Source: Dyella jiangningensis (GTDB lineage Bacteria > Pseudomonadota > Gammaproteobacteria > Xanthomonadales > Rhodanobacteraceae). Taken from it: a DNA stretch of 64,000 bases. The number at the start of each line of letters is the position of its first letter. Position 1 is the stretch's first letter. Below the pieces are notes generated by a model. It was not told where the DNA came from. It ran no database searches and saw only the letters and a list, made by a program, of their open reading frames with translations. The stretch lies in NCBI RefSeq assembly GCF_003264855.1, contig NZ_NFZS01000001.1, forward strand, positions 1,364,001 to 1,428,000, read 5' to 3'. The position numbers and the translations under genes are program-made. Below, piece by piece: positions 18,880 to 30,582 of this stretch.

Positions 18880-19632
18880 TCAGTCGCCCCCGGCGCCGAG
18901 CTGCCGCGACAGCGCATAGAGCACGCGCAGATCCTGCGCATCCAGCTCGTTACCATCCATGCCGCGGAAGTGGTGATGGAACGAGCGCACCGTGGCGGCC
19001 CGGTCATCCAGCGGGTAACCGATCAGGCCCAATGCCATCCACGGATCGAAGCCCGGCGGCGGATCGGCCAGCACGCCGCGCGGCCACAGGCCGAAGCCGG
19101 CGTCGGCCAGCAGCTGCCAGGGGAAGCTTGGTCCCGGGTCGTCCTTGCGGCCGGGGGCGAGATCCTCGTGGCCGATGATCTGCGTGCGCGGAATGCGCAG
19201 CCGGTCGGTGAGATCGGCGAGCAGGTGCAGCAGGCTGTCGATCTGCGCCTTCGTGAAGGGCGAGTGGCCGTCGTTGTCCAGCTCGATGCCGATCGATGCC
19301 GAATTGACGTCGGTAATGGTGCCCCAGTGCCCGGCGCCGGCGTGCCAGGCGCGCTGGCTGTCGGCCACGAGTTGATAGATGCGGCCGTCGTTGCCGACCA
19401 GGTAATGCGAACTCACCGGCCCTCCGCTGTTCGCCGTGCGCAACGTATGCAGCGCCTGCTCGGCGGACTGCTCGTCGGTGAAGTGCACGACGATTAGCAC
19501 GGGACGCCGCTGGTCGAAATTCGGCGAAGGCACCCACTGCGCGATAGGGTTGCGCACGGGGGCCGGCGCGCAGGCGCTCAGCAACAGGAGCACGGAGGAC
19601 AGCAGCGCAAGCCGGGCATGGGTCGACAGCAT
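18880..19632 (-). CDS. N-acetylmuramoyl-L-alanine amidase, AmiD/AmpD-type lipoprotein
   Basis: A 250-residue Amidase_2 protein. ATG 19632 is chosen because it opens a lipoprotein signal (LALLSSVLLLLSAC, lipobox LSAC). Zinc ligands are visible: the His of VVHFTD, the His of IIGHEDLAPGRK and the Asp of KDDPGP. The substrate-site segments NSASIGIELDNDG and SSHYLVGNDGRIYQLV are as in AmpD/AmiD. It cleaves the amide between MurNAc and L-Ala in cell-wall fragments; the lipid anchor points to the periplasmic face of the outer membrane, like E. coli AmiD rather than cytoplasmic AmpD. Confidence 0.9.
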   Translation of the reverse strand: MLSTHARLALLSSVLLLLSACAPAPVRNPIAQWVPSPNFDQRRPVLIVVHFTDEQSAEQALHTLRTANSGGPVSSHYLVGNDGRIYQLVADSQRAWHAGAGHWGTITDVNSASIGIELDNDGHSPFTKAQIDSLLHLLADLTDRLRIPRTQIIGHEDLAPGRKDDPGPSFPWQLLADAGFGLWPRGVLADPPPGFDPWMALGLIGYPLDDRAATVRSFHHHFRGMDGNELDAQDLRVLYALSRQLGAGGD

Positions 19633-19751
19633 GGCGGTCACGTCGCGATGGAATGGTGTGAAGCTGCCGCACCGCGCGGGCAAGGTCAAGCAAAACGAAA
19701 ACGGCGCCCGGAACACCGGACGCCGTCGTCGCCGCAAACGAGTTGGAAGGA

Positions 19752-20315
19752 TCAGGCGCGGCCGGCGAACTCGCCCGTCAGCGTGTTCACCCACACCTTC
19801 TCTTCATTGGTGATGTACTCGGGCACCTGGATCTCGACGCCGGTGTTGAGCTTGGCCGGCTTGGTGCGCTTGGTGGCACTGGCGCCCTTCAGTTCCGGCG
19901 CGGTATCGACCACCGTGAGCACGACACTGGTGGGCACCTGCAGGCCGACCGGCGCATCGTCGATCACCTGCACGTAGTAGCCCTCGACGCCTTCCACGAT
20001 GTAGCCGGCGTTATCGCCCACCAGTTCGGGGCCGAGCGTGTACTGCGTGTAGTCCTCGTTGTCCATGAACACATAGGCGTCGCCGTCCATGTAAGAGAAG
20101 TTGGCCGCGCGGCGCAGCAGGTCCATTTCCTTGAGATCGTCGTCGGCGCGCAGGCTCAGGTCGAACTTGCGGCCACCGGGGATCGAATACATGGTGAAAC
20201 GGAAGGTGACGTTGCCGCCACGTGCGGTAGGCGAACTGCGCTCGATGTCGCGCACCTGGTAGACGGTGCCGTCGTGTTCGACCACGTTGCCTTTCTTGAC
20301 GTCGGAAGCTTTCAT
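19752..20315 (-). CDS. efpL: Elongation factor P-like protein EfpL (YeiP)
   Basis: A 187-residue EF-P paralogue with three beta-barrel domains: KOW-like N domain ([15 protein letters not shown]), a middle OB domain and a C-terminal OB domain ([39 protein letters not shown]). The tip loop reads SPTARGGNV with Arg32 where canonical EF-P carries the modified Lys/Arg at position 32-34, and the loop is extended as in YeiP. YeiP/EfpL helps ribosomes through proline-containing stalls. It lies alone; canonical EF-P is not in the window. Confidence 0.9.
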
Positions 20316-20387: not shown

Positions 20388-21149
20388 TTACTTCGGCTGC
20401 AGACGCACCGCGCCGTCGAGACGGATGGTTTCGCCGTTGATGTAGCGGTTGCCGAGGATGAAGCCCACCGTGTTGGCGAACTCGTCGGGCTTGCCCAGGC
20501 GCGAGGGGAACGGAATCGAGGCCGACAGCGACTCCTGCACCTGCGGCGGCATGCCGTCCACCATCGGCGTCCAGAAGATGCCCGGCGCGATGGTCGCCAC
20601 GCGGATGCCGAAACGCGACAGCTCGCGCGCCATCGGCAAGGTCATGCCGACCACGCCACCCTTGGAGGCGGAGTAGGCAGCCTGGCCGATCTGGCCTTCG
20701 AACGCGGCGACGGAGGCGGTGTTGATGATCACGCCGCGCTCGCCGTCCTCGCCCGCTTCGTTGTTCTGCATCAGCGAAGCGCCGGCCTTGGCGACGTTGA
20801 AGCTGCCCACCAGGTTCACCATCACGGTGGTGGCGAAGGTATTGAGCGGCATCGGGCCTTCCTTGCCCAGCATGCGGCCGGCGCCCAGGATGCCCGCGCA
20901 GTTCACCACCACGTTGAGGCCGCCCATCGCTTCGCGCGCGGCGGCGACGTTGGCGCTGACGCCTTCCTCGGAGGTGACGTCGGTGCGGTAGAAGTGGCCG
21001 CCCAGCGCCTTGGCCGCTTCCTGGCCCTTTTCTTCGTTCACGTCGAACAGGGCGACCTTGCCGCCGTTGGCGACCAGGAACTGCGCCACCGCGTGGCCGA
21101 GACCGGAGGCGCCGCCGGTGATGATCGCCTTGACCTGATTGAGCTGCAT
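20388..21149 (-). CDS. SDR-family 3-hydroxyacyl-CoA dehydrogenase-like oxidoreductase
   Basis: A 253-residue short-chain dehydrogenase. The NAD-binding GGASGLG motif is at residues 12-18, VNCAG at about 83-87, and the catalytic Ser (INTASVAAFEG), Tyr and Lys (YSASKGG) are all present. The whole pattern (GIFWTPMVDGMPPQVQESL, then SRLGKPDEFANTV) matches type-2 3-hydroxyacyl-CoA dehydrogenase (HSD17B10-like), which oxidises branched- and short-chain 3-hydroxyacyl-CoA. That would suit a role in branched-chain amino acid breakdown, but it is not adjacent to the liu genes. Confidence 0.88.
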   Translation of the reverse strand: MQLNQVKAIITGGASGLGHAVAQFLVANGGKVALFDVNEEKGQEAAKALGGHFYRTDVTSEEGVSANVAAAREAMGGLNVVVNCAGILGAGRMLGKEGPMPLNTFATTVMVNLVGSFNVAKAGASLMQNNEAGEDGERGVIINTASVAAFEGQIGQAAYSASKGGVVGMTLPMARELSRFGIRVATIAPGIFWTPMVDGMPPQVQESLSASIPFPSRLGKPDEFANTVGFILGNRYINGETIRLDGAVRLQPK

Positions 21150-21376
21150 GGGAAGTCCGTAAAGCGGTTGGAAAACGCCAATGGTAGCCCAGCGGGCGCC
21201 ATCCGGTCCGCAGGGCGCACTGCGGCTGGCGGGATGGGCGGTCGGCCTATCACCGATAGCCGTACTTAGAGCTTTTGTCGGCGCTGCTTATATCCATTTT
21301 CCGGGCTCTTTTTGCAGTGCAGCGGAGTAAAACCTAAAGGGTTGGCTACGGGCGCCGCCACCGGAGGAAGGCTGCC

Positions 21377-24300
21377 ATGGAGCTTAAGGACGACCAGCCG
21401 CGATACGGCAGGGGACTTGCCTCTATCTCGCCGGCGATGCCCTGGTGGCGCGCGCTGGTCGTCGCATGCCTGTTGCTGGCGGGTATGGCTCATGGAGCGG
21501 ACGCGTCACCCCCCAGCTATTTCATGACCACCTCGCAACTGGCCGATCCGCTGAAGCCGTTTGCGCATCTGCCCAGCCATGCGTCGGTGCGGGTGCAGGC
21601 GGCCGTCATTGCACTTCCCGACCCGCTGGAAACACGGCTTGGGCGCGCCTTCGACGTGGAGGTTGGCGCGGTGATCAGCGCCTTCCAGGCCAGCGGTTAT
21701 GCACTGGATGGTTTTGCGTTGGCGTGGCCGCCGCGTAAGCCGAGCGATGGTGACAGCTACCCCAGCAGCAGTGATCCCGCACGCACCTTGCCCGGCGTGA
21801 TGCTGTTCCGCCATGACAACTGGCGGGACTGCCACGCAACGCCGGACGCCAAGACGTTTTGCGGTTCGACCTATTACGCCTTGTTCGTCGTCGGTGAAAC
21901 GCCAACCTCCGGCGTGCATCCCGAAGCCTTCAAGGTGGCCGCGCGCTGCGCCATGGCCGTGGATGGCATGCAGCGCCTGGGGCAGGCTGCCGATGTCGCA
22001 TCGCTCGATTGCCATCCCGGCGAACCGCTGAAACCGCCGGGTTGCGAGCATCAGCTGGACATCATCGGTCCATCCTTTTCCGGCTCGATGGAATCGATGG
22101 CGGCTGCGCTTGGCAGGGTTGCTGCCGATGTCGCCGCCGGGCCATGCGCGAACGCCGGTCCCCGCGGGATCAGGATCCGTCTGGTGTCGCCTTCGGCAAG
22201 CATCAACAACAACGACGAGATCAAGTACCACGCGTATCTTGCGCCGTCAGACCTGCCGTCGTTCAAGGTGTCGTTCGAGTACCGCGCGTTGGCGTACAGC
22301 GTGGCCGACCAGATGGACACGGTGATGGACTATCTGGAGCCGCGTCTGGGCCCCGATGGCAATGTCGTCGTGCTCAGCGAAGAATCGAGCTTCGGCGAAG
22401 GTGCGCGCAACCTCGCCACGGATCGCCTTGGTGCTCGCAACGCCATCTGCACACGGCGCAGCGACGGTGGAAACGCGGCCGCGTTGCATTGCTGGGGGCA
22501 CCTCGTCAACGTGCAGTTTCCGCCCAACATCGCGGCGATCCGCGCCGAGCACGTAAAGGCGAAGCAGGCCGACGATGCAGAGCGCAAGCAATTGCTGCCC
22601 GACCGCCTGCTCGAACTCGATCTCACTGGCGTGGACAAGAGCGCCGACCAGCCGCCGACCTACCAGCCAAGCCTCACCTCGCGTTCGGACGAGCTCATGC
22701 TTTACCAGACGTTCGATGCGCTCAAGAAATACATCCGTCCCGCGGCCGTGATCATCGTGGCGACCGACGTGCGCGACCGGTTGTTCCTGCTCAGCGAAGT
22801 GCGCGACCTGTTGCCGGGGTCGCTGCCCATCGTGCTCGAGCAGGACAACCTGCTGGCGCATCCGGACTATCGCGACATCAGTCGTGGCAGCATCACCATG
22901 CCTGCCGGGCAGAGCCTGATCTGCCTCAACAGCGACAACGAGCCGATGCCGTGCCCACCGGGCGAAGGGAAACGCAGCCTGTCATCGACCGGCGAGGACA
23001 CGTGGAAATGCCCCCTGGTCCCGCGGCATTTCGCGTTCGCCACGGATTACGCCGCCAACATGTTTCGCGCCGCGACGCGGTTGGCGAGGCTGCAGTATCT
23101 CCCCGCGGAGAAGCAGGACACGTTCACCGCAGCCGATGAGACCTGGCTGGCACCGCCGATGCTGGTGGCCACGCTGGCCGGCTTTCAGTACGTGGATGCC
23201 AAGAGCAAGCCGTCGGCCACGGCCATCGCGACCAATCCCTGCAAGACCGCACCGTTGCCGGAGGGTCGACAGGACATCCTCATCGTTGCGGACGCCCGCA
23301 TCCAGTTGCAGGAGCCGGTGTATCTGGCGATGACCTTGTTCTTCGCCGTGATGCTTACGGTGGCTTCGTGGCTCATGTGGAATGGCCGCGATATCTCGCT
23401 GGTGTCGTTCCCCGTCTGCCGCCATGCCCTGCGATGGATGCGCGTGACGCCGAACACCACGGAAGCGTTCCGCAACACGTCGTCGGGATGGCTGTTCGCG
23501 TGGCTGACCTTCGCCTTGGCGGGGTTGGTGATTGCAGGTGGCAAGGTACTCACGATGCTGCCGCCGCCTTCCTATGGCGACACCAATCTCGCCCATGGCC
23601 GCGATCTGTGGGCGCTGCTGGCCTTGTGCCTGGGCTATGGGTGTTTCGTCGCGTTCGCGGCCCTGCGCGTGCTCGACTGGAACACGCACAGCAACGTGCT
23701 CGCCCAGGCGATGGGTGACGGCTCGCGCTTTGGCGTGCGTCTCAGGCAGCAGGGCCATTGGCACGCCGTAGCGGGTGCGCTGATCCTGCTGATATGCCTG
23801 CCGCTGAGCGTCAACGACATGACGCCCACGACCACCGATCGCCCATGGATTTCCGAGTTGAGCGGCATCTTCGCGTTGGGCGGCAGCGCATTCTTCTTCG
23901 TGCTGCTGGCTGAAACGTTCGATCGCTGGCGGCGGACCTGCCTGGAGCTGGCCAAGGTGATTCCGCTCGTGCGCGAAAAGGAGTCGAAGCTTGCCGAATG
24001 GCCCACGCCGTGCCTGCTCGATGAGCGTCCGCGCAGCCCGTTCAACATCGTCATGCGCAGCGACAACTACGATGCATGGCGCAAGCAGCCCTTGTCCGAG
24101 TGGGCCACGCAGACGCGAAGCCTGCTCGACCAGGCGTGGCCCTTCGACACCAGCGGACCGTCATTCGTCATCTGGCAGGCACAGCTGGTGGCGGAGATGA
24201 AACTGGCCGCAGCCGCCGTGCGCACCTGTGCGTGGTGCGCCGTGCTGGGGGCGACGCTGGCCCTGCTGCTGATGCAGGTCTATCCGCCGGTCTACCCGCG

Positions 24301-24556
24301 GCTGCAGACTACGGTTGCCACCGTCCTGCTGGGCGTGTCGTTCGCGGCCATCGTGTATGCGGTGCTGCAGCTGGAGAAGGATGCGCTGCTTGGTCGCATG
24401 TTCACCGCCGACAAGGATCACCTCACGCTCGGCGGCGCATTGACGGCGCTGTGGCCCAAGCTGCTCGCCTTCGGTTCCATCCTGGTGATGGTGTTCCTGC
24501 CCAGCGCGTGGGACTGGGTGGGCGGCCTGGTGAAGGCAATCAACACACTGCACTGA
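21377..24556 (+). CDS. Large exported-domain membrane protein of unknown function
   Basis: A 1059-residue protein that I do not recognise. ATG 21377 has GGAGGAAGG upstream. Residues about 23-41 form a signal peptide or anchor, and 42-645 an exported domain with many Cys. About eight membrane helices follow at roughly 648-668, 704-722, 744-764, 796-812, 826-846, 950-968, 977-997 and 1027-1045. Between helices five and six there is a 100-residue cytoplasmic or periplasmic loop. In the exported part, LDIIGPSFSGSMESMAAAL, GNVVVLSEESSFGEGARN and AAVIIVATDVRDRLFLL with SLPIVLEQDN look like the strand-turn pattern of type I periplasmic-binding folds (inference). It has its own 227-bp upstream region and no operon partner. 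Confidence 0.75.
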   Translation: MELKDDQPRYGRGLASISPAMPWWRALVVACLLLAGMAHGADASPPSYFMTTSQLADPLKPFAHLPSHASVRVQAAVIALPDPLETRLGRAFDVEVGAVISAFQASGYALDGFALAWPPRKPSDGDSYPSSSDPARTLPGVMLFRHDNWRDCHATPDAKTFCGSTYYALFVVGETPTSGVHPEAFKVAARCAMAVDGMQRLGQAADVASLDCHPGEPLKPPGCEHQLDIIGPSFSGSMESMAAALGRVAADVAAGPCANAGPRGIRIRLVSPSASINNNDEIKYHAYLAPSDLPSFKVSFEYRALAYSVADQMDTVMDYLEPRLGPDGNVVVLSEESSFGEGARNLATDRLGARNAICTRRSDGGNAAALHCWGHLVNVQFPPNIAAIRAEHVKAKQADDAERKQLLPDRLLELDLTGVDKSADQPPTYQPSLTSRSDELMLYQTFDALKKYIRPAAVIIVATDVRDRLFLLSEVRDLLPGSLPIVLEQDNLLAHPDYRDISRGSITMPAGQSLICLNSDNEPMPCPPGEGKRSLSSTGEDTWKCPLVPRHFAFATDYAANMFRAATRLARLQYLPAEKQDTFTAADETWLAPPMLVATLAGFQYVDAKSKPSATAIATNPCKTAPLPEGRQDILIVADARIQLQEPVYLAMTLFFAVMLTVASWLMWNGRDISLVSFPVCRHALRWMRVTPNTTEAFRNTSSGWLFAWLTFALAGLVIAGGKVLTMLPPPSYGDTNLAHGRDLWALLALCLGYGCFVAFAALRVLDWNTHSNVLAQAMGDGSRFGVRLRQQGHWHAVAGALILLICLPLSVNDMTPTTTDRPWISELSGIFALGGSAFFFVLLAETFDRWRRTCLELAKVIPLVREKESKLAEWPTPCLLDERPRSPFNIVMRSDNYDAWRKQPLSEWATQTRSLLDQAWPFDTSGPSFVIWQAQLVAEMKLAAAAVRTCAWCAVLGATLALLLMQVYPPVYPRLQTTVATVLLGVSFAAIVYAVLQLEKDALLGRMFTADKDHLTLGGALTALWPKLLAFGSILVMVFLPSAWDWVGGLVKAINTLH

Positions 24557-24583
24557 GCCGCCGCGCGCCGCGACGGCGCCGCA

Positions 24584-25150
24584 TCATCGTGTGAGCCGTT
24601 CGCGAAAGGCCTGCGTTTCGGCGAGCGCGGGGAAGGGCGTCACGGGGCGTGGCGGATTCTCCGGTGGCTGCAATTCCTTCTGCCACACGCCCACATCCCA
24701 CCATTGGCCCAGCTTGTAACCGCTGCTGCGCCACACGCCTGCCGGCGTGAAACCCATGGCATCGTGCATCGCCACGCTGCTTTCGCCAGGCAGGGTGATC
24801 ACGCCCACGGCCTGGTTGATGCCTTGCAGCTTCATCACATCCAACAGGACGCCGTAGAGGCGGCGCGCGATGCCGCGGCGGCGCGCATCGGCGTGAACGT
24901 AGATGGACGTCTCGGCGATCCAGTCGTAGGCCGCGCGTTCGCGAAAACGACTGGCATAGGCGTAGGCCAGCACCCGGCCGTCTTCTTCCCACACCAGCCA
25001 CGGGTATTGTCGCAGTCGCGTCACGATGCGCTCGCGCATCGCGTCGACGCCCGGCAGTTCGTTCTCGAAGGTTTCCACGCCGTGCAGCACCGAGGGCGTA
25101 TAGATATCGTGTGCGGCCGCGGCGTCATCGGGGCGGGCGATGCGGATCAT
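24584..25150 (-). CDS. GNAT N-acetyltransferase, phosphinothricin-acetyltransferase-like
   Basis: A 188-residue GNAT protein. The Pat/Bar pattern is clear: IRIARPDDAAAAHDIYTPSV, FENELPG, WLVWEEDGRVLAYAYASRFRERAAY, ETSIYVHADARRRGIARRLY (the acetyl-CoA-binding motif A, RRRGIA) and the C-terminal GFTPAGVWRSSGYKLGQW. It acetylates a small amine using acetyl-CoA. It is the last gene of a compact three-gene operon; its ATG overlaps the upstream GNAT stop. Confidence 0.87.
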   Translation of the reverse strand: MIRIARPDDAAAAHDIYTPSVLHGVETFENELPGVDAMRERIVTRLRQYPWLVWEEDGRVLAYAYASRFRERAAYDWIAETSIYVHADARRRGIARRLYGVLLDVMKLQGINQAVGVITLPGESSVAMHDAMGFTPAGVWRSSGYKLGQWWDVGVWQKELQPPENPPRPVTPFPALAETQAFRERLTR

Positions 25151-28504: not shown

Positions 28505-29266
28505 TTACATGTTTCGGAACAAAGCCATGAAGGGCTGGCTCACCACCAGCGTCTCGGGCCGCTGCTTGAGCCGCAGCGTGCCCTTGCCCGTGTCGTCGCG
28601 GACGATAGACGCCACGGCGCGCAGGTTGACGATGGTCGAGCGGTGAATCTGCTTGAACGTGTTGGGGTCGAGCACGCCGGCCAGCTCGCGGATCGGCGTG
28701 CGCAGCAACGCTTCGCCATCGGCGGTCATGGCCACGGTGTACTTGTTGTCGGCGCGGAAATAGGCAACGTCGTCCACCATGATGAGTCGCGTCTCGCGGC
28801 CGTTGCTGGCGGTGATCCAGGTCAGCGGCGACCGGCCCGGGCCGCCGCCGGCGCTCAGGTCGCGCAGCAGCGCGGCGAGCGCCGTGGCGTCCGGCACGGC
28901 CGTGGCGCGCGCCTTGATGCGCTGCACGGTGGCCGTCAGTCGTTCCGTGGTGATGGGCTTGAGCAGGTAATCGATCGCGCCACGTTCGAACGCATCCACG
29001 GCGTACTGGTCATAGGCCGTGGTGAACACCACCTGCGTGCCGGGGCTGGCTTCGCTCGCGGCGGCGGCCACTTCCAGCCCGCTCAGGCCCGGCATGCGAA
29101 TGTCGAGGAAGGCGATGTCGGGGCGATGCTGGTCGATGGCTTCGAGCGCGCTGGCGCCGTCGTCGCATTCGGCGACGATCTCCAGCTCAGGCCAGGTCGT
29201 GGCGAGCAACTCGCGCAATGCCGTGCGCAGCAGCACTTCGTCTTCGGCGATGATGGCGGTGGTCAT
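28505..29266 (-). CDS. LytTR-family response regulator
   Basis: A 253-residue regulator. Residues 1-120 are a receiver domain with acidic pocket ED at 8-9, phospho-acceptor Asp55 (IAFLDIRMPG), Thr82/83 and Lys103 (YLLKPI). Residues about 150-250 are a LytTR DNA-binding domain (DDVAYFRADNKYTVAM; FKQIHRSTIVNLRAV). The start overlaps the stop of the histidine kinase gene. In this family the regulator usually controls a neighbouring operon; here targets are unknown. Confidence 0.92.
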   Translation of the reverse strand: MTTAIIAEDEVLLRTALRELLATTWPELEIVAECDDGASALEAIDQHRPDIAFLDIRMPGLSGLEVAAAASEASPGTQVVFTTAYDQYAVDAFERGAIDYLLKPITTERLTATVQRIKARATAVPDATALAALLRDLSAGGGPGRSPLTWITASNGRETRLIMVDDVAYFRADNKYTVAMTADGEALLRTPIRELAGVLDPNTFKQIHRSTIVNLRAVASIVRDDTGKGTLRLKQRPETLVVSQPFMALFRNM

Positions 29267-30582
29267 GACGATACCTCCGCGCTCTCCTTGGCGACGCGCA
29301 CCGGCACGATGATGGTGCTGGCCACGCCTTCGGGCGCATTGCTCACCACCGACAGCGAGGCTTCGGGGCCATAGATGAGGCGCAGGCGTTCGCGCACGTT
29401 CTTGAGGCCGATGCCGGTGCCCCCGCTGGCGCCGGTGAAGCCCAGGCCGTCATCCGCCACGGTGATCGCCACCTTGCCGTCGTCGCGGCGTGCGCGGATC
29501 CACACCGTGCCGCCACCGGGCTTGCGCTCCAGGCCGTGCTTGATCGAGTTCTCCACCAGGGTCTGCAGCATCATCGGTGGCAGCGAAATCGGGCGCAGCA
29601 CGTCGGCCACGTCGATCTCCAGCGAGAGGCGCGGGCCCATGCGCAGCTTCATGATTTCCAGATAGGCCCGCGTGCGTTCCAGTTCGTCGCCGACGGTGGA
29701 CAGCGCGTCTTCGGTCAATGGCAGCGAGTGGCGCAGGTAGTGGATCAGATGGCCGAGCATCTGGTCGGCCTGCGCGGGATCGGTGCGCGTAAGGTACTGC
29801 GCGCTGGCAAGCGTGTTGTAGAGGAAGTGCGGCTCCACCTGCGCATGCAGCAGGTTCAGGCGGGCGACGGTGCGTTCCTTCTCGCTTTCCGACTGCGCGG
29901 CCCGCGCTTTTTCGTGGCGGCGCTTCTCGGCGACGCGGCGGGTGATGGCGCGGGTGATCGCTTCGGCATTCTCCAGATTGGTGCCGTCATCCACGCGGAA
30001 CCAGTCGCTCCATGCGCCGGCTTCGGGCTCGCAGATCAAGGTGACGCTGCTGCTGCCGTCGCCTGGCGTCACCGTGGCGAAGATCTGGTTGCGCAGGTGG
30101 CCGAACCAGGTGCCGGGGTCCAGTTTTCCGAACGAGCGGTGGCCGTAGGTGATCGGTCGCTGCACCTTGGCGCGGACCTGCAGGCTGTCGCGCGCGCTTT
30201 CCACTTCTTCCGTACGTGGAAGCTCGCGGATGGCTGCGTCGAGCAGATCGAAGGATTCGTCGGCATCGAAGGGAATTTCCACGCGGCGACGCTGACGGTT
30301 GCCGAGCGTGTCGTCATCGATGCGGCCGGCCACCAGGCGTACGCGGCGCAGGTGCGATACGGCGCCGGTGACCACCATCAACAGGGCGATGAAGATCAGC
30401 AGCACGACCATGCCGCCCATATCGTGATGCCGGAACGGCGGACTGTCGGCGAGCACGAGGGCCACGAAAAGCAGAACCAGGAACCAGGCCACGACCAGTC
30501 GTGCAACGAACATCAGGCTCTTCAACACGACACGACCCTGTGAAATGGCGATGGGGAGGAGGATACCCAGCCTCGTCGTCAC
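29263..30582 (-). CDS. LytS/YehU-type sensor histidine kinase
   Basis: A 439-residue kinase paired with the LytTR regulator. Two membrane helices are at residues about 22-46 and 55-80, with no large sensor domain between them. The cytoplasmic part has a 130-residue region, then the His_kinase segment HAQVEPHFLYNTL with the phospho-accepting His and an HATPase domain (LVENSIKHGLE, VADDGLGF, GIGLKNVRERL). The frame opens with GTG at 30582 without a clear ribosome site, so a slightly later start is possible. The central region carries a WFRVDDGTNLENAEAITRAI stretch of unknown role. Confidence 0.9.
   Translation of the reverse strand: MTTRLGILLPIAISQGRVVLKSLMFVARLVVAWFLVLLFVALVLADSPPFRHHDMGGMVVLLIFIALLMVVTGAVSHLRRVRLVAGRIDDDTLGNRQRRRVEIPFDADESFDLLDAAIRELPRTEEVESARDSLQVRAKVQRPITYGHRSFGKLDPGTWFGHLRNQIFATVTPGDGSSSVTLICEPEAGAWSDWFRVDDGTNLENAEAITRAITRRVAEKRRHEKARAAQSESEKERTVARLNLLHAQVEPHFLYNTLASAQYLTRTDPAQADQMLGHLIHYLRHSLPLTEDALSTVGDELERTRAYLEIMKLRMGPRLSLEIDVADVLRPISLPPMMLQTLVENSIKHGLERKPGGGTVWIRARRDDGKVAITVADDGLGFTGASGGTGIGLKNVRERLRLIYGPEASLSVVSNAPEGVASTIIVPVRVAKESAEVSS

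Follow-up and report, generated by a model that had tools for sequence, protein, structure and literature searches.

A candidate membrane-bound sensor with a Venus-flytrap domain and an undescribed membrane half in Dyella jiangningensis

Introduction

Amino acids are bound by a clamshell-shaped fold, the Venus flytrap, in transport proteins and also in receptors of the brain and of taste. The coupling of an external flytrap domain to a polytopic membrane transducer is a hallmark of the eukaryotic class C receptors. Here, we analysed a stretch of 64,000 nucleotides from Dyella jiangningensis (assembly GCF_003264855.1, contig NZ_NFZS01000001.1, positions 1,364,001 to 1,428,000 of the forward strand; the whole stretch is called the window, and its own numbering is used below), which contains a gene for a 1059-residue protein with an exported Venus-flytrap domain followed by a membrane domain of eight predicted helices. 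Two bacterial systems described by Kaur et al. (2020; PMC7159879) provide a basis for comparison: System 3, made of trypsin-NucA operons with papain and lysozyme effectors, and System 4, built on a caspase that sometimes carries membrane helices and an external binding-protein domain. The sections of that paper on Systems 3 and 4 mention no gene in which an N-terminal flytrap precedes a polytopic membrane domain, and no description of the protein family was found in the open-access literature, which does not prove its absence. The window protein is most likely a flytrap sensor with an undescribed membrane transducer, in which the exported half has a predicted fold of a known kind and the membrane half has no recognised counterpart.

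Results

The reading frame and its products

The open reading frame is a real gene, as indicated by its ribosome-binding sequence (GGAGGAAGG, graded strong) and by the ratio of nonsynonymous to synonymous substitutions (dN/dS) in comparison with the copy in genome G004, which is 88% identical (0.158 over 1057 codons, two sequences only). Codon statistics also favoured a real gene. By part, dN/dS values of 0.152 and 0.120 were obtained for the exported and membrane domains, respectively, and a value of 0.715 for residues 1-43, which fits a signal peptide. The hydropathy scan revealed an N-terminal hydrophobic segment and eight membrane segments between residues 648 and 1040, and it concurred with the AlphaFold2 model in placing one export helix at the N-terminus and eight helices in the membrane at about 638-1040. 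The coordinates of these and other features are collected in Table 1.

Table 1. Features of the flytrap-membrane protein gene and its flanks, in window coordinates
Feature	Coordinates	Strand	Basis
Flytrap-membrane protein gene, 1059 residues	21377..24556	+	Translation of the open reading frame, codon statistics, dN/dS
Ribosome-binding sequence, 5 bases 5' of ATG	21363..21371	+	Read directly
Predicted signal peptide region, residues 1-43 (model helix 21-41)	21377..21505	+	Hydropathy, AlphaFold2 model, dN/dS
Exported type I periplasmic-binding (Venus-flytrap) domain, residues 71-613	21587..23215	+	AlphaFold2 model, VIA-align
Ser235, at LivJ mature Ser79; Ser in 23/23 rows	22079..22081	+	Profile alignment
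Ser275, at LivJ Thr102; Ser/Thr in 23/23 rows	22199..22201	+	Profile alignment
Phe339, at LivJ Tyr150; Phe/Tyr in 23/23 rows	22391..22393	+	Profile alignment
Asp464 (ATDVRD motif), at LivJ Tyr202; Asp in 22/23 rows	22766..22768	+	Spacing, inferred
Glu488, at LivJ Glu226; Glu/Asp in 23/23 rows	22838..22840	+	Spacing, inferred
Membrane domain, residues 636-1059, eight predicted membrane helices	23282..24553	+	Hydropathy, AlphaFold2 models, structure searches
Core of the largest predicted cytoplasmic loop, residues 859-927, helices 5-6	23951..24157	+	Hydropathy, model, 23-row alignment
SDR dehydrogenase gene, one flank of the variable site	20388..21149	-	Pfam
GNAT acetyltransferase gene, other flank of the variable site	24584..25150	-	Pfam

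Fold of the exported domain

The whole-protein AlphaFold2 model, built from an 18-row alignment, had a mean predicted local distance difference test (pLDDT) value of 68.7 and a predicted template modelling score (pTM) of 0.60; ten-residue pLDDT means in the exported domain were mostly 60-88, with values of 35-60 at about residues 391-440 and 521-550. Comparison of this domain with known structures through VIA-align gave 5ere as the top match (Z 19.6, root-mean-square deviation (rmsd) 3.1, 293 residues aligned, model range 73-608), along with LivK (3td9; Z 19.0, rmsd 3.5 Å, 313 aligned), AmiC (1pea; Z 17.8, rmsd 3.5 Å, 313 aligned) and plant GLR3.4 (Z 16.4, rmsd 4.1, 333 aligned), and the matches of residues 71-613 are extracellular ligand-binding receptors. 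As modelled, this region is a two-lobe Rossmann-like fold of the type I binding-protein kind. The window gene was not listed for Pfam PF13458 (Peripla_BP_6) even at E 10, and did not reach the curated cut-off; we therefore describe a flytrap fold without membership of this Pfam family. Residues G231, P232, S235, E335, D467 and D490 were identical in 23/23 aligned family members. These counts, and all others on 23 rows, leave out L016, L038, L043, L044, L063, L065 and L093, which are broken, cut or partial, as well as a weak match in G020 (E 7e-4) without a confirmed open reading frame; L013, L041 and some further members were given the start of their longest reading frame, which may be too early.

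Profile comparison with LivJ/LivK (E 0.0016, probability only 16%) aligned the GPxxS, SPxA[ST] and LSEESSFG strand-turn motifs. With three binding proteins in the profile instead of two, the match weakened (E 0.004, probability 8.5), and the C-lobe motif ATDVRD was covered by neither comparison. In LivJ, Ser79, Thr102 and Tyr150 of the mature protein were named as isoleucine contacts by docking (PMC6983066). The profile alignment places Ser235, Ser275 and Phe339 of the window protein at these positions, and two more residues, Asp464 and Glu488, can tentatively be set on LivJ from their equal spacing and from agreement in where strands and helices end. We take Glu226 of LivJ, the position matched to Glu488, to be a ligand contact as well. 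At four LivJ contact positions, three placed by profile alignment and one by spacing, all 23 intact members have an identical or similar residue, which makes an amino-acid-like ligand plausible; judging from these conserved positions, the ligand probably carries an alpha-amino-acid-like head group.

The membrane domain

Lysine and arginine residues were counted in the loops of the membrane domain, with loop limits set by us, and amounted to 25 in loops 1, 3, 5 and 7 vs 3 in loops 2, 4, 6 and 8, a bias that points to an N-out, C-out topology. Modelled alone from 22 rows, the domain reached a pLDDT of 78.7 and a pTM of 0.79. A Foldseek search of this domain against the PDB gave nothing better than E 0.81, and the best VIA-align match was the insect receptor Gr43a (Z 8.4, rmsd 6.1, 257 aligned), with G-protein-coupled receptors (GPCRs) at Z 6.2-8.3. 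Since the helical background for VIA-align lies at Z of about 13 and all the matches of this domain fell below it, the searches neither assign nor exclude a fold for the membrane half. Gly741, which is predicted to lie in the periplasmic loop that follows helix 2, was identical in 23/23 rows.

Searches of NCBIfam, PADLOC, PHROGs and PDB sequences gave no match for the window protein at the limits used, and Pfam returned only Ost5 at E 0.1, under the cut-off of that family. A Pfam and NCBIfam scan of 18 members yielded nothing usable and no transporter match: 3 Pfam and 13 NCBIfam families appeared, each in one member only, and the NCBIfam matches were led by SMC-type models, probably arising from coiled coil. 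A profile search of the PDB gave only chance-like local matches (best, Nucleolar protein 56, E 0.006), which were discarded, as were 52 pattern matches in viral contigs, none of them confirmed; the best match to viral structures had an E of 0.037, and among plasmids P0001 gave no match. Altogether, these results uphold an initial annotation made from the sequence alone. The 1059-residue protein that it called unrecognised has a sound reading frame and no match in family libraries, its binding-protein-like exported domain corresponds to a clear type I fold by structure prediction and search (Z 19.6), and the eight membrane helices are seen in both the hydropathy scan and the model. The strand-turn motifs that it quoted are among the best conserved stretches in the 23 rows, and its statement that the membrane half carries no transporter or kinase motifs agrees with the lack of any clear match to a family or to a solved transporter fold. 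Neither result that the annotation had named as contrary to it, a model without a binding-protein fold or a clear match to a known transporter family, was obtained.

The same data bear on an alternative in which the protein carries out ligand-gated or ligand-loaded transport, with the flytrap delivering or sensing a solute and the eight-helix domain acting as pore or carrier, on the model of glutamate-receptor-like channels or of fused binding-protein importers. Most of the top binding-domain matches are subunits of ATP-binding cassette (ABC) importers, plant GLR3.4 is matched at Z 16.4, and the domain is polytopic with an invariant Gly741, all of which would suit transport; on the other hand, there is no ATPase and no Pfam or NCBIfam transporter match in the 18 scanned members, no transporter fold among the leading matches of the membrane-domain search, itself wholly at background, and no transport gene directly adjoining the receptor in the window. 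We consider transport unlikely.

Distribution and family tree

The receptor family is sparse, with matches in 1-5% of the genomes covered by the larger surveys. Carriers amounted to 7/61 relatives, 14/398 genomes of the order (including the weak, unconfirmed G020), 5/398 of the phylum, 9/369 of the class, 9/197 in the family of G384 and 8/233 in the family of the window; the genome sets of these surveys overlap and their search models differ. The nearest named carrier was Dyella sp. EPa41 (Rhodanobacteraceae), the sole locus from the genome-contig scan. A tree of 23 exported domains, with a midpoint root only and several long branches, showed two deep groups (100/100), one of 15 rows with an ATDVRD-like motif and one of 8 rows with a GSDVYDK-like motif. 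The window copy belongs to a clade of eight rows (support 100/99) inside the ATDVRD-like group, and its neighbour (96/95) is L014, a copy linked to the muramidase-papain protein described below. Two loci of the window clade, L039 and L081, have a single same-strand neighbour at 200 bp or less, these genes being glutathione-peroxidase-like and peroxiredoxin-like by eye.

Two incomplete relatives were also observed. A partial relative at L065:8616-9776 reads ATDPRDKLYLARLIR and possibly represents a third family branch. At L016:6147-11123, a transposase-like gene separates an exported part from a distinct 446-residue membrane protein encoded on the same strand, and by eye the arrangement looks as if a receptor gene had been interrupted.

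Genomic site in Dyella

The GNAT gene was present in 20/20 genomes of the genus. The SDR-GNAT junction (window 21149-24584) held the receptor in 4/20 genomes, brought SDR and GNAT next to each other in 11/20 and contained another gene in 5/20, namely a ShlB/FhaC-type secretion transporter in four, by eye (Pfam confirms the one tested, L101), and a TonB receptor plug in the fifth (L103). This differing content identifies a variable site. At the same site (window 21377-25150), the receptor is about 52% identical to the G014 and G016 copies and the adjacent GNAT about 87%, a contrast that, from the sequences, could reflect either fast evolution or replacement.

An Amidase_2 gene (window 18880-19794, minus strand, E 7e-36) is found three genes away from the receptor. 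We did not regard it as a partner, because the SDR and EFP-like genes in between hold their order in congeners without the receptor. Further along, at window 28505-30582 (minus strand), there is a pair consisting of a LytTR response regulator and a His_kinase sensor; LytTR/His_kinase-like genes also occur near the receptor in L012, L013 and L017.

Neighbour genes in relatives

In L014, a protein of 887 residues is encoded 42 bp upstream of the receptor and on the same strand; it contains an N-acetylmuramidase domain (E 2.5e-61) along with papain-like and alpha/beta hydrolase regions, both below cut-off. The gene order is the same in L038, and in G283 (L043) a match to this papain-hydrolase partner adjoins the receptor matches. 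The receptor of L040 is followed by a 211-residue companion, a 973-residue Amidase_2-hydrolase-caspase protein and a 592-residue protein. The hydrolase part is common to the 973-residue protein and the L014 partner (27% over 355 residues, E 2e-21), and the 592-residue protein is 46% identical (E 2e-150) to the product of a 604-residue gene behind L015. An HExxH stretch in both led us to call these two proteins metallopeptidase-like by eye; they had no Pfam match. Companions of about 220 residues were found by BLAST behind L015, L040, L093 and L094 (pairwise E 2e-31 to 8e-4) and by eye in a fifth locus, L082; one of those scanned showed weak alpha/beta hydrolase matches. Other neighbours were a Trypsin_2-Endonuclease_NS protein and a Tle1-like phospholipase in L041, a Tle1-like phospholipase and a peptidoglycan-binding protein in L046, a weak lipase match in L042 and a TPR-S protein with a weak LCAT match in L059. 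By eye, no companion or hydrolase neighbour was present in the distant members L045, L060, L061, L063 and L064.

Two further arrangements were noted. A Ser/Thr protein kinase with a DUF4384 domain is encoded upstream of the receptor at L015:12033-13604, and in G1230 (L150:1627-8630) the amidase-hydrolase-caspase, metallopeptidase-like and trypsin-endonuclease NS genes form one same-strand run, the receptor lying elsewhere in the genome.

The initial annotation had also described a lone gene with its own regulatory region, perhaps a receptor signalling through its own membrane domain or a member of an unknown surface system, and this interpretation is partly supported: signalling through the membrane domain is a putative role. 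The gene indeed diverges from SDR across an intergenic gap of 227 bp, and converges with GNAT; this gap is the sole basis for a regulatory region, a scan of 21100-24700 having found no sigma-70-like site. A surface system gains some ground from the relatives that share a gene run with companion or hydrolase genes, and loses it in the window copy, which has no such neighbour and whose genome lacks the two partner families searched.

Discussion

The union of a flytrap with a membrane half, and the proximity of some relatives to genes whose products cleave proteins, lipids, DNA or cell wall, lead us to read the window protein as a membrane-bound ligand sensor that works through a membrane domain not described before, with a probability of roughly 0.5. 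We infer small-molecule binding, the ligand, the output, the signalling, its transmission to the cytoplasmic loop and the control of enzymes. After export, the type I flytrap domain would close on a small ligand; closure would be passed to the eight-helix membrane domain, where a change of state may follow in the helix bundle or in the cytoplasmic loop that joins helices 5 and 6. In some related clades the output would probably be one or more lytic or proteolytic enzymes from the same gene run, under a presumed causal link, and the window copy, an orphan of the family, would act on another partner or by itself.

Several observations weigh against this sensor reading. No known output domain, such as a kinase or a cyclase, is present in the window protein, and flytrap folds are able to bind proteins too. 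The superposition of the whole chain on class C receptors was poor (TM-score 0.23, rmsd 33 Å for mGlu2), with eight predicted helices vs seven in class C GPCRs. No partner adjoins the window gene, whose flanks are SDR and GNAT, and of the two families searched, the L014-type papain-hydrolase and the metallopeptidase-like gene, neither is present in the window genome. A recurrence test, in which homologous neighbour pairs at 21 loci at different sites were compared with shuffles, showed no enrichment among genes within three places, with 8 pairs vs 7.6 expected with a first gene caller and 10 vs 8.8 with a second one. When the four genomes with known adjacency were removed, the papain-hydrolase was found in 4/15 carriers vs 2/23 non-carriers (p 0.15).

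The association was stronger under a narrower definition. Among same-strand contiguous genes (25/170), 6 homologous pairs were found vs a shuffled mean of 0.63, and 0/5000 shuffles reached 6; this definition was made after the first null result, with the second gene caller, which finds one gene only in each of L061 and L082. The signal stems from L014, L015, L040, L093 and L094. In the full set, the papain-hydrolase was present in 8/19 carriers vs 2/23 non-carriers (p 0.0145), and the metallopeptidase-like gene in 6/29 vs 1/34 (p 0.032), or 3/26 vs 1/34 (p 0.21) without the three genomes that were the source of the query; these p values treat related genomes as independent. A lytic-enzyme link is well supported in some family members; for the window gene the support is only indirect, since neither of the two partner families searched is found in its genome.

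These neighbours are also the ground for an alternative in which the protein is a component of peptidase and cell-wall-hydrolase conflict systems that anchors, senses for or restrains co-encoded lytic enzymes, copies without such neighbours using enzymes encoded elsewhere or being leftovers. The muramidase-papain-hydrolase adjoining L014, L038 and L043, the amidase-hydrolase-caspase and metallopeptidase-like genes behind L040, the trypsin-endonuclease and Tle1-like phospholipase by L041, the Tle1-like protein by L046 and the companion gene in four loci by BLAST and a fifth by eye are all in line with it, as is the coupling of trypsin/NucA with papain and lysozyme effectors in System 3 (Kaur et al. 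2020; PMC7159879). The lack of such neighbours in the whole window clade (0/8 rows) and, by eye, in the five distant loci, together with a window genome devoid of the two partners searched, makes this alternative doubtful. The flytrap might instead be a protein-contact module acting on periplasmic cell-wall synthesis or repair, not a ligand binder, much as the binding-protein-like domain of LpoA is thought to act by protein contact on cell-wall synthesis, and some relatives do adjoin peptidoglycan-cutting enzymes; the LivJ ligand-contact residues kept through deep divergence make this very improbable.

A ligand sensor is thus ranked as the most likely reading, ahead of transport, a conflict-system component and a protein-contact module. 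A bolder version, offered tentatively and with little confidence, would make the family a bacterial counterpart of class C receptors, with an amino-acid-like signal, an eight-helix transducer and an ancestral peptidase, phospholipase and wall-hydrolase cascade, from which lone copies turned to other outputs. If the sensor reading is true, the family becomes a candidate sensor for caspase, papain, phospholipase and peptidoglycan-hydrolase systems, and would allow a test of how a flytrap drives a bilayer-spanning domain without a kinase or an ATPase.

Among known systems, LivJ/LivK, AmiC and other type I periplasmic-binding proteins (Peripla_BP_6 group) have a like two-lobe fold (Z 17.8-19.6), and the ligand-contact positions of LivJ are matched in the window protein, at only 8-14% identity among the matches listed. 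Unlike LivJ, LivK and AmiC, the window protein has its flytrap fused to a polytopic membrane domain, and its LSEESSFG-to-ATDVRD stretch is about 70 residues longer than that of LivJ, by our count from the alignments. It differs from an ABC importer in having no nucleotide-binding subunit, and the flanking genes are SDR and GNAT, further genes being judged by eye. With System 3 of Kaur et al. (PMC7159879) the likeness is that some relatives adjoin trypsin-endonuclease NS, papain-like and peptidoglycan-cutting genes; the section on that system describes no binding-protein membrane receptor, and its trypsin and NucA-type endonuclease are absent by the window gene (further genes by eye), occurring only beside L041. 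As System 4 is described in its section, the binding-protein domain is C-terminal on a caspase protein beside EACC1, whereas in the window protein the flytrap is N-terminal to a polytopic domain and has its own gene, with no caspase flanking it. Class C GPCRs (mGlu, calcium-sensing and sweet taste receptors) headed the whole-chain Foldseek list (mGlu2, E 5.9e-6) and have a like layout, an external flytrap followed by a helix bundle. As far as the models indicate, this likeness is one of the order of parts, the membrane fold having given no match above background, and the window protein represents a sparse bacterial family that combines the class C layout with a conserved membrane domain of no recognised fold.

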